The notes below the pieces were generated by a model, which saw nothing but the letters and a program-made list of their open reading frames with translations, did no database searches and had not been told where the DNA came from. Of a stretch of DNA of 64,000 bases, positions 35,031 to 41,572 are shown in pieces (positions within the stretch are counted from its first letter, which is position 1; the number at the start of each line of letters is the position of its first letter). The position numbers were made by a program, and so were the translations under genes. This DNA comes from Halarchaeum grantii (GTDB lineage: Archaea > Halobacteriota > Halobacteria > Halobacteriales > Halobacteriaceae), in assembly GCF_014647455.2 (NCBI RefSeq), contig NZ_BMPF01000001.1, positions 372,001 to 436,000 of the forward strand. The letters are read 5' to 3'.

Positions 35031-35629
35031 CGGCGCTCGGCGACGATGACGCCGACCTGCGGGTGAACCCGCTCGACGGCCGTGACGGCGTAGCCCGCGT
35101 CCGTGAACGCCTCGACGAGCACGCCCACGGTCGCCGGGTCGTCCACCTCGGGATCGTAGAAGGGGGCCTCGGGGTCCGGAAGTCCGAAGAGCATCACGTC
35201 CCCGAGGACGATCCGGCGCGGGTCGTAACCCGCCATCACGTCGATGGCGTCGCGTTTCGCGTCGTCGTCGAGGTGGTGGAGCGCGAAGTTCGACGTGACG
35301 ATTGTGGCCTCGCCGTCGTAGTTCGGCTCGCGGAAGCTCCCCTCGCCGAACTCGACGTTCGAGAGGCCGCGGTCTGAGGCCTTCTGGCGCGCCTTCGAGA
35401 GCATCCCCTCGCTGACGTCCCGCCCGACGACGCGTCCCGCCCCGTCGGCGAGCGAGAGCGCGACTGCGCCCGTCCCACAACCCAAGTCGAGCACGGTGTC
35501 GTCCCCTCTCGGGTCCGCGTGCTCGACGACGAGCCGCAGACACTCCATGTACTGGTCGCCGGACGACTCGTCGTACGTCGCGGCGAGCTCGTCGAAGCGC
35601 TCAGCGTGTTCGTCGACGTCCTTCTTCAT
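35027..35629 (-). CDS. Class I SAM-dependent methyltransferase
   Basis: 200 residues starting MKKDVDEHAERFDELAATYD, a UbiE/COQ5-like N-terminus. SAM motif I is VLDLGCGTGAVALSLADG (about residues 47-64); motif II-like ATIVTSNFALHHLDD follows near 110. The substrate is unknown. It is embedded between the two RNase P genes: its start overlaps the rnp3 gene by 29 bases and its stop overlaps rnp2 by four. That position suggests an RNA-related role, but this is inference. Confidence 0.9.
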   Translation of the reverse strand: MKKDVDEHAERFDELAATYDESSGDQYMECLRLVVEHADPRGDDTVLDLGCGTGAVALSLADGAGRVVGRDVSEGMLSKARQKASDRGLSNVEFGEGSFREPNYDGEATIVTSNFALHHLDDDAKRDAIDVMAGYDPRRIVLGDVMLFGLPDPEAPFYDPEVDDPATVGVLVEAFTDAGYAVTAVERVHPQVGVIVAERR

Positions 35630-36317
35630 ACCGTCCGCGTTCGAGCCCCGGCGCAATGAACTCCCCGGAGCGCCGGTGTCGGTTGCGCGCCGCGAGTTCC
35701 CCCCACTCCGCGAGGCCGGCCTCGATCTGCTCGGCGTCGAACCCGATGGTTTCGCCGACCGCGCGGAGCTCGCGTGGCGCCCGGAGTTCGAGGTGCGACG
35801 CCGGGGACGCGGTCACGACGTAGGGCGCGTCGTACTGCTCGACGAGCTCGCGGAGCTTGCGGAGCCCACGGAGCGCCTGCACGCGCGGCCCGCCGGACTC
35901 GCGGAGCACCGGCCCGAGGTCGAACTCGAGGCGGACGCCGTGCTCGGCGGCCGCGCGCACGATGACGTGGTTCACGTCGCCCCGTCCGGCCATCGGCTTC
36001 GTGAGGACGTCGACGCGCTCCTCCTCGGCCGCGAAGCGGTTCAGTTTCGCCGTCCCGCCGCGCACGAGCAGGAGCGTGTGCTCGCGTCGCGCGTCCGCGA
36101 GCGCGCCGCTCAACACCGTCGGGTCGTCGCCGGCGAGTTCCACCGCGTCGACAGCGTCGACGCCGAACTCCTCGCGGACGGCGGCGGCGTCGAATCCCGG
36201 GTCGGCGTCCGCGGCGTCGCGGACGACGACCCCGTCGAAGCCCTGCCGGTCGGCCGTCGCCGCGAACCGCCCCACCGTGCTCTCGCCCGCCGGCGTCGCC
36301 GTCACCGCCTCGTACAT
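35601..36317 (-). CDS. rnp3: Ribonuclease P protein component 3 (Rpp30/p30)
   Basis: 238 residues with a TIM-barrel-like PHP fold. Typical p30 pieces are MYEAVTATPAGESTVGRFAA, GFDGVVVRDAADADPG, HTLLLVRGGTAKLNRFAAEE, VDVLTKPMAGRGDVNHVIVR, and the late PYVVTASPASHLELRAPREL. Pairs with Pop5 in archaeal RNase P. The start at 36315-36317 is the only ATG that gives the normal N-terminus. It is the first gene of the rnp3-methyltransferase-rnp2-psmA unit. Confidence 0.93.
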   Translation of the reverse strand: MYEAVTATPAGESTVGRFAATADRQGFDGVVVRDAADADPGFDAAAVREEFGVDAVDAVELAGDDPTVLSGALADARREHTLLLVRGGTAKLNRFAAEEERVDVLTKPMAGRGDVNHVIVRAAAEHGVRLEFDLGPVLRESGGPRVQALRGLRKLRELVEQYDAPYVVTASPASHLELRAPRELRAVGETIGFDAEQIEAGLAEWGELAARNRHRRSGEFIAPGLERGRYEEGRRRTR

Positions 36318-36397
36318 ACCGTAGAGTAGGACGCCGCGCCGGTAAAACCCGTGTGGTCGCCACGACGGTTGCCGGTCTGAGGACACCAGTGACGACG

Positions 36398-36529
36398 ATG
36401 AGCGAGAGCGACGTCGACCCCGTGGGCGTCGACTAAGGGTGCCCCGAAGCGAACCCGGAGTGCGAGGCGGCCGTCGAGGCGTGGCGCGAGAGCGTCTCCG
36501 GGGGAAGCGGCGGCGAGTGGCTGACGCGA
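36398..36529 (+). pseudogene. Possible small ORF broken by a stop codon
   Basis: An ATG at 36398 opens MSESDVDPVGVD and meets TAA at 36434-36436. The same frame continues as GCPEANPECEAAVEAWRESV and beyond to the end of the COG1325 gene on the other strand. A single base change (TAA to TAC, giving DYGCPE) would join the two parts into a small acidic protein with a C-x6-C pair. I do not recognise a family with certainty. It may be a decayed gene, a sequence error or chance. Confidence 0.3.
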
Positions 36530-36530
36530 G

Positions 36531-36944
36531 TCAGAGCGCCTCGCGGGCGTTCTCGACGGCCGCCTCGCGCGTCGCCGGGTAGGCCTCGACCTTCGCACGG
36601 AAGGAGATGCCCTCGCCGAGGCGCACCTCCCCCCGGAACGCCGCCTGCTTGTCGATGTGGGCCATGAACGCGCAGTTCTCGTTCACGCGCTGGTCGAGCT
36701 CCTCGCGGAGCCGACCGAGGTCCGCGCCCTCGCGCAGGCGCTCGATGACGTGGCGCATCCCGTCGGCGTTCTCCACGCGCGCGGACAGCACGACGATGCG
36801 GTCGCCGTTGTGGCCGGTGCTCTCCGCGCGCTGGACCTCGAACTCCTCGGGGAGGAAGTGCCGGAGAGCCGCCTCGACGCGCTTCTCGTCCTCCGTGTCG
36901 TAGCAAAACGTCCGCAGGTCGATGTAGTGGAAGGGAACGCTCAT
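36531..36944 (-). CDS. RNA-binding protein, COG1325 (exosome-associated type)
   Basis: 137 residues from MSVPFHYIDLRTFCYDTEDE. The pattern of HYxxLRxFxxxTEDE, a central EVQRAESTGHNGDRIVVLSA strand pair and RVNENCAFMAHIDKQAAFRG matches COG1325, predicted RNA-binding proteins of the archaeal exosome/RNase P neighbourhood. Haloarchaea generally keep this gene though the classical exosome genes are not in the cluster here. The upstream ATG at 36983 would add 13 residues across an A/T-poor leader and is not preferred. Confidence 0.88.
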   Translation of the reverse strand: MSVPFHYIDLRTFCYDTEDEKRVEAALRHFLPEEFEVQRAESTGHNGDRIVVLSARVENADGMRHVIERLREGADLGRLREELDQRVNENCAFMAHIDKQAAFRGEVRLGEGISFRAKVEAYPATREAAVENAREAL

Positions 36945-36964
36945 TGTACCCGGAAAGAAGCCGG

Positions 36965-37211
36965 AGCGGGAAAAGCGCTCCACTCCGGTCCGCGTTCGCC
37001 GTTCGGATGTCCGGTCGCGCGTCGCGGGACCTATTCCTCGCGGCTACGCTGCTCGCCTGTCCAGTCGCGCCCTCGCTCGCGCTCGGTTGCGACCTATTCC
37101 TCGCGGGTCGCTTCGCTCCCCGCTCGATAATCCGTCGTTCCGTAGGAACGACGCTATTGTACGGGCGACCCGTGAGACGCCCGTACGGTTCGCGGGACCG
37201 GAGGTCCTGCG
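36965..37211. other. Intergenic region with three tandem hairpins and a dispersed repeat
   Basis: About 250 bases without a gene. 37030-37103 holds a repeat related to 41513-41585. Three hairpins follow in a row: 37133-37153 (9-bp perfect stem, GTA loop), 37159-37186 (9-bp perfect stem, 10-base loop) and 37192-37210 (8-bp stem with one G-T pair, 3-base loop). The last one ends one base from the stop of the DUF1918 gene. They may form a transcription terminator or a stable RNA. Confidence 0.75.
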
Positions 37212-37397
37212 TTATTCCTCGTCGGCTTCCTCGAGGTTGTCCTCGGGGACGCCCTGCTCCTGCCCGTCGTCGAACGCGACCGTGTAGTTCGCGTCGCCGA
37301 ACATCGTCTCGACCTTCTGCGTGATCTCACCGGTCTCGCCGTCGAACTCGCTGTGCTCGTCGTGCAGAACCACGGCGTCGCCTTCTTCGAAGCTCAT
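37212..37397 (-). CDS. DUF1918-like small protein
   Basis: 61 residues starting MSFEEGDAVVLHDEHSEFDG. A short SH3/KOW-like beta barrel is suggested: GDAVVLHDEH, TGEITQKVETMFGDA, YTVAFDDGQEQGVPEDNLEE. In Halobacteria these are labelled DUF1918 proteins. Role unknown. The ATG at 37395-37397 is chosen over an upstream one because MSFEEGD is the conserved N-terminus. A hairpin-rich region follows its stop. Confidence 0.85.
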   Translation of the reverse strand: MSFEEGDAVVLHDEHSEFDGETGEITQKVETMFGDANYTVAFDDGQEQGVPEDNLEEADEE

Positions 37398-37526
37398 ACT
37401 CCGAACACGGAGGGGGTCACGCAAAAACGCCCCGATTCACCGGGAGAGCGAGCGGCGGACGCGTCCGACGCGCCCGCGACACTGACAGGGGGCGAGACGC
37501 CTCCGAGCGACGCACCGGCGACGCGT

Positions 37527-38357
37527 TCACCCCCACTCGACGCCCTCGCGGGTCTCGGCGTCCCAGCGGCGCAGGACCGCGCGCGCGTTCCCGGCGTGGT
37601 AGCCGAAGTAGACGTTCTCGGCGTACTCCCCGGCGAGGTCGGCGGCCTCGGCGAGCGCGCCCACGTCGGGGTCGACGGCGTAGAGCTCGACGCCGAGACG
37701 GACGTCGCGTCCCTCGAGTCGGTCCGCGAACCCCGAGAGAAGCGCCTCCAGCCAGTACGTCGTCGCGTACGCCGTGTCGTAGAGCGGGACGACGACTTCG
37801 TCGACGTGCGCGGCGAGCGCGTCGAGGTCGACACCGGAGTGCGCGCGCAGGTGGCCGGGGTACGGGTCCGGGTGGACGGTGAGGTAGAGGTCGCCCGGCA
37901 CGCGCTCGCGGGCCTCGGCGACGAACGAGGTGACGACGGACGCGCGCCACGCCTCGCGGTCGTCGGACTCGCTCTCCGCGAAGGCGTCGTCGCAGTGCTC
38001 ACAGTGACAGAACGCCGGCCCGGGGAAGCCGACCTCGTCGAGGCGGACGTCGTCGCTCGCCGCCACGCAGGCGTCGATGACCTCGAAGAGGCCGTCGCGG
38101 TAGTGCTCGATGCTCGGACAGACGTACCCCCAGTCGAGGGCCGAGTGGTCCTTCGTCGCGCGACGGCCCTCGGCGTCGACGGGCGCGAGATGCGGGTCGG
38201 TCTCGGCGGTCGCGGTGTCGCCGAAGCAGGAGACGAGGTTCACCGCGTCCGGCTCCGGGTCGACGTGCTCGCCGGTGACGCGCTTGACCTCGTAGAAGCC
38301 TACGTCGAACTCCGACCACTCGAGTTCCTCGGCGTTCCGCGTGACGACGCCGTACAT
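37527..38357 (-). CDS. Putative glycoside-hydrolase-like TIM-barrel protein
   Basis: 276 residues beginning MYGVVTRNAEELEWSEFDVG. The centre carries GFPGPAFCHCEHCDDAF with a C-x-C-x2-C cluster at C117, C119 and C122. The same motif is found in hypothetical glycoside-hydrolase-like families, where it binds a metal. The DLYLTVHPDPYPGHL and EVVVPLYDTAYATTYW segments look like barrel strands. No signal peptide, so cytoplasmic. Function is not known; carbohydrate hydrolysis is inference. Confidence 0.6.
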   Translation of the reverse strand: MYGVVTRNAEELEWSEFDVGFYEVKRVTGEHVDPEPDAVNLVSCFGDTATAETDPHLAPVDAEGRRATKDHSALDWGYVCPSIEHYRDGLFEVIDACVAASDDVRLDEVGFPGPAFCHCEHCDDAFAESESDDREAWRASVVTSFVAEARERVPGDLYLTVHPDPYPGHLRAHSGVDLDALAAHVDEVVVPLYDTAYATTYWLEALLSGFADRLEGRDVRLGVELYAVDPDVGALAEAADLAGEYAENVYFGYHAGNARAVLRRWDAETREGVEWG

Positions 38358-38466
38358 ATCACACGTGGGGAGCGCGGGCCGCCTAAAGCGTTCGTTCCCG
38401 GGACGCGTCGCTGGGAGTTGGGCGACAGCGGAGGATGGGGCGGCGCGTGCCGCGCGAGTGCGGTGC

Positions 38467-38577
38467 TCAGTCGATGCGGTCGATGTCCTCGGCGGGCTCG
38501 GACTCGCCGCCGGCGACGAGCTTGTAGACGAGGACGATCAGGGCCAGTGCGAGGGCGAGCTTGACGGTCGTGCGCAT
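38467..38577 (-). CDS. Small single-pass membrane protein
   Basis: 36 residues: a short basic start (MRTTVK), one hydrophobic helix (LALALALIVLVYKLVAG) and an acidic tail. The N-terminal Arg/Lys and C-terminal acidic residues suggest the tail faces outward, but this is weak. Similar tiny proteins are common in Halobacteria. A GGTATAGTGG stretch on its strand, about 25 bases upstream, is a plausible promoter. Confidence 0.6.
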   Translation of the reverse strand: MRTTVKLALALALIVLVYKLVAGGESEPAEDIDRID

Positions 38578-38624
38578 ATGTGAGCGTACGTATCGGTCCA
38601 CTATACCTTTTCGGGAATCGGCGC

Positions 38625-39089
38625 TCAGACGGCGAGGTGGTCGGTGATGTCCTCGCGGACGATGGTCTCGCAGTACGCGCATCGGACGCCCTCGGAGATG
38701 ACGTCGAAACGCGTCTCGACGGGTTCGCCGGCGTTCGTGATGCAGTGGCGGTTCGGGCAGTGGAGGAGGCCGACGACCTCCGCCGGGGGCTCGATTTCGG
38801 TCTTCTCCGCGACCTCGTACTCCCGAACGATGTTCACGGTGGCGTCCGGCGCGATGAGCGAGAGGACGTCGAGTTCGGCCTGACTCATCTCGCGGCCCTC
38901 GACCTTCACGATGTCCTTCTGCCCCATCCGCCCGCTCGGAACGTTCATCCCGAGGCTGACGCTCTCGCCGCCGCTCCCGTCGATGCCGAGGATGGCGAGG
39001 ACGTGGAGGGCTTCGCCGGCGGGAACGTGGTCGATGACGGTGCCGTCGCGGATCTTGGAGACGCGGAGTTCGGTGTCTTTCTCGGTCAT
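38625..39089 (-). CDS. pyrI: Aspartate carbamoyltransferase regulatory chain
   Basis: 154 residues. Binds CTP/ATP and modulates the catalytic chain. The N-terminal allosteric domain has LRVSKIRDGTVIDHVPAGEA, and ILGIDGSGGESVSLGMNVPS. The C-terminal zinc domain uses CPNRHC and CAYC for four cysteines. Start is the ATG at 39087-39089, two bases after the pyrB stop, so the two subunits are co-translated. Confidence 0.96.
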   Translation of the reverse strand: MTEKDTELRVSKIRDGTVIDHVPAGEALHVLAILGIDGSGGESVSLGMNVPSGRMGQKDIVKVEGREMSQAELDVLSLIAPDATVNIVREYEVAEKTEIEPPAEVVGLLHCPNRHCITNAGEPVETRFDVISEGVRCAYCETIVREDITDHLAV

Positions 39090-41336: not shown

Positions 41337-41572
41337 GCGGTCACGTCGCGGCCTGCGCCGCTATCAGACGCCGAGCGCCGCCGCTACGCGGCGGAAAAAC
41401 GTGGAGAATCGCGGTGGCGGGATGATCGGCGACGCCTCGCTCCGCTCGTCGTCGCCTTACCTCACGGGTCACTACGGTCCCCGTTCGGTGTTCAGTCGCC
41501 CCTTCGGGCCGACCTATGCCTCGCGGCTACGCCGCTCGGCTATGTCGCGCCCTCGCTCGCGCTCGGTTACGA
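41337..41572. other. Intergenic region with dispersed repeat and hairpins
   Basis: Between the convergent DUF7090 and SlyD genes. A hairpin CCGCCGC/GCGGCGG (41378-41394, TAC loop) is followed by AAAAA. The last 60-70 bases (41513 into the SlyD stop) resemble 37030-37103. No gene is seen. Confidence 0.65.

Follow-up and report, generated by a model that had tools for sequence, protein, structure and literature searches.

Why should three strong hairpins stand side by side where a small gene of the haloarchaeon Halarchaeum grantii ends? The row lies in a stretch of 64,000 nucleotides (henceforth the window, the whole of the DNA analysed), and a preliminary description had seen in it one local device, be it a processed 3′ UTR, a stable small RNA or an array of protein-binding sites. 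The evidence shows a dispersed repeat family in its place, and we consider it probable, with a good measure of doubt left, that it belongs to a cluster of palindromic elements of Halobacteria that are REP/BIME-like. What speaks for this is the existence of two recurrent modules in many copies, with covarying stems and a sense bias behind stop codons, together with the lack of the array in three genus mates.

From a row of hairpins to an array

The three hairpins are present at 37133-37211, as had been claimed, and such a row is rare by chance. When both strands of 37125-37215 were folded, the energy was −47.9 kcal/mol (z −4.7) for the plus strand and −45.7 kcal/mol (z −5.1) for the minus strand, far more stable than shuffled sequence, with none of 200 shuffles matching it on either strand. 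Single stems of such size are ordinary in the G+C-rich DNA of the window, where we counted 51 perfect stems of at least 8 bp against 29 to 65 in ten Markov-3 copies. Of triples of stems within 80 nt (at least 8 bp, one G-T pair allowed), the window has one, a further 400 kb of this genome has one, and 100 Markov-3 copies have two in total. The fold z-scores and this last count thus bear out the early opinion that the row is not expected by chance. That stems had come together by chance, the genome being rich in G+C, would agree with the background level of single stems; the probability of this is next to nil, as a triple is expected about 0.02 times per window, and the dispersed covarying homologues described below already refute it. 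Over the 464 kb of this genome that were scanned in full (out of 3.02 Mb), perfect stems of at least 8 bp are not in excess between genes (0.90 per kb, against 1.11 in coding DNA), so that stem counting alone does not reveal the family. The same genome holds other stem clusters (L048:16468-16541 and L049:10175-10436), the sequences of which are apparently unlike those of the family.

The row is best read on the minus strand, where an array of about 220 nt opens at the stop of a DUF1918-like gene (Table 1), the TAA codon (37214-37212) being touched by the outermost pair of hairpin 3. The assignment of this neighbour to DUF1918 is to be taken with its score, a Pfam match being present but below cut-off (21.2 against 24 bits). 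While the hairpins do lie at 37133-37210, where they had been placed, the object so delimited was truncated: hairpins and linkers continue to about 36990, and the 78-nt row is therefore the first third of the array. After the TAA come hp3, hp2, AATAG, hp1, GATTAT, a hairpin that we call A (37126-37100) and GAATAG, followed by a second B hairpin, a short degenerate A, GAATAG again and a degenerate B-like stem, the last units having been read by eye. The reported row consists of two modules, hp3+hp2 (37157-37211) and part of a B-A unit (37100-37153), in which a 6-nt linker separates the B hairpin, hp1, from A. The motif of the second B is also present at two other loci (L002, L017), and 37003-37044 matches a place in genome G002 (L020) at 98%. 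A 'CTTTT' ahead of the downstream gene, common to this genome and three relatives, is a candidate promoter or terminator.

Table 1. Elements of the array and adjoining genes, in window coordinates
Feature	Position	Strand	Remarks
Host gene, 61-aa DUF1918-like protein	37212..37397	-	its TAA stop borders directly on the array
Hairpin 3 (hp3), first half of module	37191..37211	-	starts at first base past the stop codon; one G-T pair on + strand (fold)
Hairpin 2 (hp2), second half of module, GTACGGGCG/CGCCCGTAC	37159..37186	-	stem 37159-37167/37178-37186, 9 bp, 10-nt loop (stem search); covariation, 7 copies
Linker AATAG, module to B hairpin	37154..37158	-	TAG at foot of B
Hairpin 1 (hp1), B hairpin of B-A unit, CGTCGTTCC TAC GGAACGACG	37133..37153	-	stem 37133-37141/37145-37153, 9 bp, 3-nt loop (stem search)
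A hairpin, CGAGCGGGGAGCGAAGCGACCCGCGAG	37100..37126	-	exact match to family pattern; also folded as DNA
Second B hairpin, long-loop type, GTCGCAACC GAGCGCGAGCGA GGGCGCGAC	37064..37093	-	stem imperfect; by eye
Short degenerate A-like hairpin, CGAGCAGCGTAGCCGCGAG	37037..37055	-	by eye; intact form in L002
Degenerate B-like stem, GTCCCGCGACGCGCGAC	37014..37030	-	by eye; then A-like remnant to about 36990
Downstream gene, PF01877 RNA_binding protein	36531..36944	-	same strand as host gene

A second array of the family lies elsewhere in the window (41475-41572), behind the minus-strand gene 42505-41573; there, GAG GAA TAG is directly followed by a B hairpin. At the end of this gene in G002 (L023, L072) a different hairpin of this family is found.

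A dispersed family with covarying stems

The 27-nt A hairpin was found with at most three mismatches in 29 of 40 genomes, the parent genome included, some of the matches at this threshold being chance occurrences in coding DNA; the reversed pattern, used as control, gave three matches in total. There are nine matches in the parent genome and at most 34 in any one (G023), and G002, G008 and G016 hold 8, 16 and 20 copies. In a scan of a genome collection the exact pattern was recovered from 112 stretches, a set selected by the A pattern itself, and all 112 titles are haloarchaeal (Halobacteria). By a loose criterion, 118 of 139 distinct A copies have a hairpin B upstream on a common strand, the linker being 6 or 7 nt long in 98 of the 118. 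A strict test, requiring a perfect hairpin of at least 7 bp that ends 5-9 nt upstream of A, retains 87 of 134 copies, where two shuffles predict 1.2 and 2.2 and a site 300 nt further upstream gives 9 of 134. The sequence of the B stem varies and its pairing is retained. Genome G023 carries B-A units in tandem, with periods of 77, 63 and 80 bp (L056:8880-9510, L058:19060-19400, L060:10770-11030); these arrays keep one orientation throughout, and two of them lie between divergent called genes. NTAG precedes B in 29 of the 118 copies (GTAG in 14), and in none of 22 divergent or antisense ones. We rejected the idea that TAG is a fixed tag of the element, as it is seen only at gene-end and in-gene copies.

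The hp3+hp2 pair is a recurrent two-hairpin module, distinct from the B-A unit. A covariance model (R1), built with the window copy included, scores that copy (37157-37211, minus strand) at 67.9 bits and finds the module in 19 of 40 genomes, the parent genome included, at E ≤ 0.01; these E-values are approximate, and chance may account for the weak matches near 0.01 that come from distant genera. The parent genome has the module at four distinct places, G008 at ten.

Covariation in relatives, which had been put forward as a check of the row, is indeed seen among the dispersed copies of the family, in A as in hp3+hp2. For A we took 29 distinct 27-mers from 43 places, picked without a pairing rule (the reversed control yielded three places). 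Over seven pairs they display 17 double Watson-Crick changes, against a single one when partners are slid by one column; seven occur at pair 4-24, three at 7-21, two at 8-20, five at 11-17, the three remaining pairs having none, while the other changes are 18 single, six to G-T and five double non-pairing. It follows from the double Watson-Crick changes that single-strand folding is what is kept. In an alignment of seven copies of hp3+hp2, four pairs are altered on both sides with pairing intact, one of the four having changed only in tandem duplicates (L030, L032). At its middle, the A stem has a nearly invariant tandem G-A/A-G step, with G9 and G18 in 29 of the 29 distinct 27-mers, A10 in 25 and A19 in 26, an invariance that comes in part from choosing copies by consensus. 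The heptamer GCGAAGC is an unusually stable DNA mini-hairpin.

These features bear on two of the local readings. Bacterial REP and BIME bind gyrase or IHF, and, by analogy, the array might be a set of DNA sites for a nucleoid or topology protein, a role that the G-A/A-G mismatch step of A (nearly invariant, partly through selection by consensus) would suit. We hold this to be improbable: the stems of B and hp3 are free in sequence while they continue to pair (the B copies were selected by pairing), as would be expected of a folded strand more than of a duplex read by a protein, and the bias towards the sense of transcription also speaks against it. Were the row to encode a stable small RNA, the very stable fold found on both strands would be accounted for. 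This is more improbable still, as from locus to locus the units change order, nest in each other and degenerate, unlike an RNA gene, and as Rfam gave nothing above its gathering threshold over 35500-39000, where a single sub-threshold match was obtained (38186-38259).

Gene ends, genes and the sense strand

The same gene ends in relatives tell us what is kept in place. The DUF1918-like and PF01877 genes are 267 nt apart here, against 55 nt in G002, 59 in G003 and 127 in G001. No family hairpin lies between them in the genus mates G002 and G003, and the gap of G001 has one 8-bp B-like stem, which differs from that of the window. From this comparison of sequences, the window array is a lineage-specific gain, or has been lost more than once. 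The view that the row should be conserved in close relatives has therefore to be divided: the stems are not kept in place in these three genus mates, but elsewhere the family keeps its stems, with covariation. At another gene end (L037), B-A hairpins, with B at the stop, occur in all four Halarchaeum species, and their B stems differ and yet pair; this structure, retained despite turnover of sequence, suits a functional reading as well. At a third (L044), the hairpins are missing in the three relatives.

Conservation throughout the order at the smc/scpA gene pair was considered and rejected. Among the 30 loci examined, out of 117 genomes matched, six have a hairpin no more than 12 nt away from the stop of smc, where 2.0 are expected, one of the six being by eye outside the family; presence of the element varies between genera. 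The smc stop is TAG in four of the seven loci that hold the element (by eye) and in none of the 23 others. The element may be seen directly behind, or overlapping, the smc stop (L050:17407-17470, L111:5514-5572, L077, L112, L132), and in some genera it forms an in-frame N-terminal extension of the next called gene.

As for placement at large, gene calls came from an in-house codon scorer, and 145 A copies could be placed over all sets, five at contig edges having been dropped. Gaps between co-directional genes contain 37 copies in sense and 12 in antisense; convergent gaps contain 26 and divergent ones 19, of which 11 come from G023. Within the 112-stretch set the co-directional gaps have 32 sense and 10 antisense copies, and divergent gaps hold 8 of 73 intergenic copies, against 33% expected from intergenic DNA. 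For the hp3+hp2 module, the contexts of 26 copies are 10 co-sense, 9 convergent, 5 antisense, 2 undecided and none divergent; its orientation taken alone is not significant (10 co-sense and 4 co-antisense of 23).

Many copies lie within genes. The statement that the row has no coding explanation is true of the window copy, yet 51 of the 145 placed A copies are inside called genes, and all 51 are in sense. Of 122 matches in the exact-pattern scan of the 112-stretch set, 58 are inside called genes, and a wider scan of that set requiring pairing counts 48 in genes, 73 between them and 5 at edges; called gene starts are perhaps too far upstream for some in-gene copies. All but one of the 51 use two of the three reading frames, giving peptides like ASGERSDPR or RAGSEATRE, and in L095 and L124 the element itself supplies the stop. 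These copies are not 51 events, because several are orthologues of one insertion. An in-frame B-A insertion, apparently at one place in one protein gene, is found in three Halorubrum species, a Halorarius and a MAG (L107, L162, L168, L174, L179). Translation of the consensus suggests that antisense copies would be open too, but basic, and selection within an acidic proteome may explain the sense-only bias in genes.

The array is probably transcribed within a predicted 3′ UTR. An RNA element kept there for its function, which would terminate transcription or protect from 3′ exonucleases and so set the ratio of the DUF1918-gene and downstream mRNAs, is in keeping with hairpins that start at the stop codon in sense orientation, with covariation, and with the different but pairing B stems of L037 in all four species. 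It is also favoured by a Haloferax volcanii reporter in which, according to excerpts of PMC7237163, 59% of the transcripts were terminated by a hairpin. In A-selected loci (a set chosen by pattern) 17 hairpins start at offset 0 behind stops, against about three per position elsewhere; in two samples not chosen by pattern there is no clear peak at the stop, with 7 and 3 at offset 0 and up to 7 and 4 at other offsets. We nonetheless find this explanation unlikely. The window array is missing at the DUF1918-like gene in G001, G002 and G003, the same hairpins occur behind unrelated genes, within genes and in some divergent gaps, and the hairpins are not followed by a T stretch, the signal on which intergenic terminators of H. 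volcanii mainly rely, the linkers being, by eye, AATAG, GATTAT and GAATAG.

Nesting, probable movement and resemblances

A further property of the hp3+hp2 module is its frequent location within a loop that belongs to another family hairpin. In a test on 26 copies, flanks pair best with their own partner (none of 10000 permutations was as good), and when joined they restore a strict family hairpin in 8 of 26 cases, against a permuted mean of 1.0 and a maximum of 6, none of 10000 permutations reaching 8. Two of the sites, L265 and L276, look like one site in two species, and two L278 copies are in tandem; without one member of each pair, 7 of 24 are restored, again a value that no permutation out of 10000 reaches. 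In L263 the joined flanks make an A hairpin that is known elsewhere in one piece. The window module is not within a hairpin loop, and fails the strict test together with 17 others of the 26; like the L278 and L269 copies, it has a stop codon on one side and, on the other, a TAG or TAA at the entry to the next hairpin.

We can therefore consider how a REP/BIME-like cluster might be built. The modules probably spread as single-stranded hairpin DNA. The two-hairpin module would travel, or be copied, in the form of a folded single strand, and would be joined to the end of a gene or enter the loop of a resident hairpin, an insertion that would leave the host hairpin still foldable; tandem duplication would then extend the arrays, which would gather at gene 3′ ends if these are the most tolerant places. 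Stacked stable hairpins in a 3′ UTR may slow 3′ exonucleases or add termination, as a secondary effect. More tentatively, and on balance doubtfully, the family may be self-nesting, its module of about 55 nt inserting precisely into apical loops through an unknown enzyme or a replication-linked template switch, also where Y1 or RAYT proteins are lacking. Several observations count against REP/BIME-like spread: the L037 hairpins, which speak for a structure kept at its site, the lack of a transposase tied to the family, the un-nested state of the window module, the two G023 arrays between divergent genes and the want of a clear stop peak.

Candidate movers and carriers were considered in turn. 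Y1_Tnp is unsupported as mover: in 31 genomes its matches do not correlate with A copy number (Spearman −0.16, P 0.38), it has no match in G002, G008 and G016 despite their many A copies, and no R1 copy lies beside eight Y1 genes (best E 0.65). Carriage by viruses was rejected, with no match in phages and no exact-pattern stretch in viral_contigs, as was carriage by plasmids, where a single 29-nt match was seen, in Halorientalis.

The family resembles bacterial REP, GTAG-REP and BIME (the last described in the part of PMC2817692 consulted) in that it consists of short dispersed palindromes, mostly intergenic behind genes, with few in divergent gaps. In GTAG-tagged REP, as passages of Di Nocera et al. 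2013 (PMC3733652) describe them, a flanking open reading frame can end on the element's TAG and some copies lie in genes; the haloarchaeal TAG likewise sometimes doubles as a gene stop, and some copies are in genes. Bacterial elements, in the descriptions at hand, form mainly inverted dimers, whereas the haloarchaeal B-A unit is head-to-tail: the alternating orientation of BIME was not observed, B being 5′ of A on one strand in 118 of 139 copies and the L056, L058 and L060 arrays unidirectional. The haloarchaeal family also differs in its variable tag, its archaeal host, the conserved tandem G-A step of its A stem, the nesting of palindromes within loops of palindromes and the absence of a link with RAYTs (Y1 tyrosine transposases). 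We do not file it as a member of the GTAG-REP/RAYT class, because the tests gave no link with the transposase, and no inverted dimers among the copies and arrays compared.

Closer to the host are the SMR-A (small mobile repeats, type A) and PATE repeats of Haloquadratum walsbyi, which are transposase-free, the mobilisation of SMR-A being called enigmatic; in the account available from PMC3119063, SMR-A are about 110 bp long with terminal inverted repeats, target IS605-type elements and enter palindromes near the ends of other elements, where they cause no duplication of the target. Compared by description, the likeness is that hp3+hp2 is also a transposase-free haloarchaeal repeat sitting inside palindromes; the difference is that it is about 55 nt long, comprises two separate hairpins lacking the length and terminal inverted repeats of SMR-A, and lies in other palindromic repeats. 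Rickettsia palindromic elements likewise occur within protein genes (passages of PMC3733652), in hosts of a different domain of life; on the same basis of description, haloarchaeal in-gene copies differ in being sense only (51 of 51) and in belonging to a family common behind genes. RepRanger lists archaeal intergenic palindromes as REP, from six archaeal genomes, with no haloarchaeon among them in the sections of PMC12306157 at hand; those come from a fold scan, whereas we deal with a covarying modular family. The literature searched gave no account of REP-like arrays in haloarchaea, and the text portion of PMC3403918 that was searched does not contain 'palindrom'.

REP-type repeats and their transposases have been mainly a bacterial subject, and IS200-type subclass 1.1 is the only one that a survey of Y1 enzymes reports in archaea, in the excerpts available (PMC6006769). 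If the reading of a covarying, strand-oriented family of hairpins within hairpins is true, a REP-like life arose, or persists, without RAYTs, and the Halobacteria family would be a system in which to find the missing mover. It would also account for some of the structured DNA between genes, and for unusual peptides (ASGERSDPR, RAGSEATRE) at the N-terminus or in linkers of haloarchaeal proteins.
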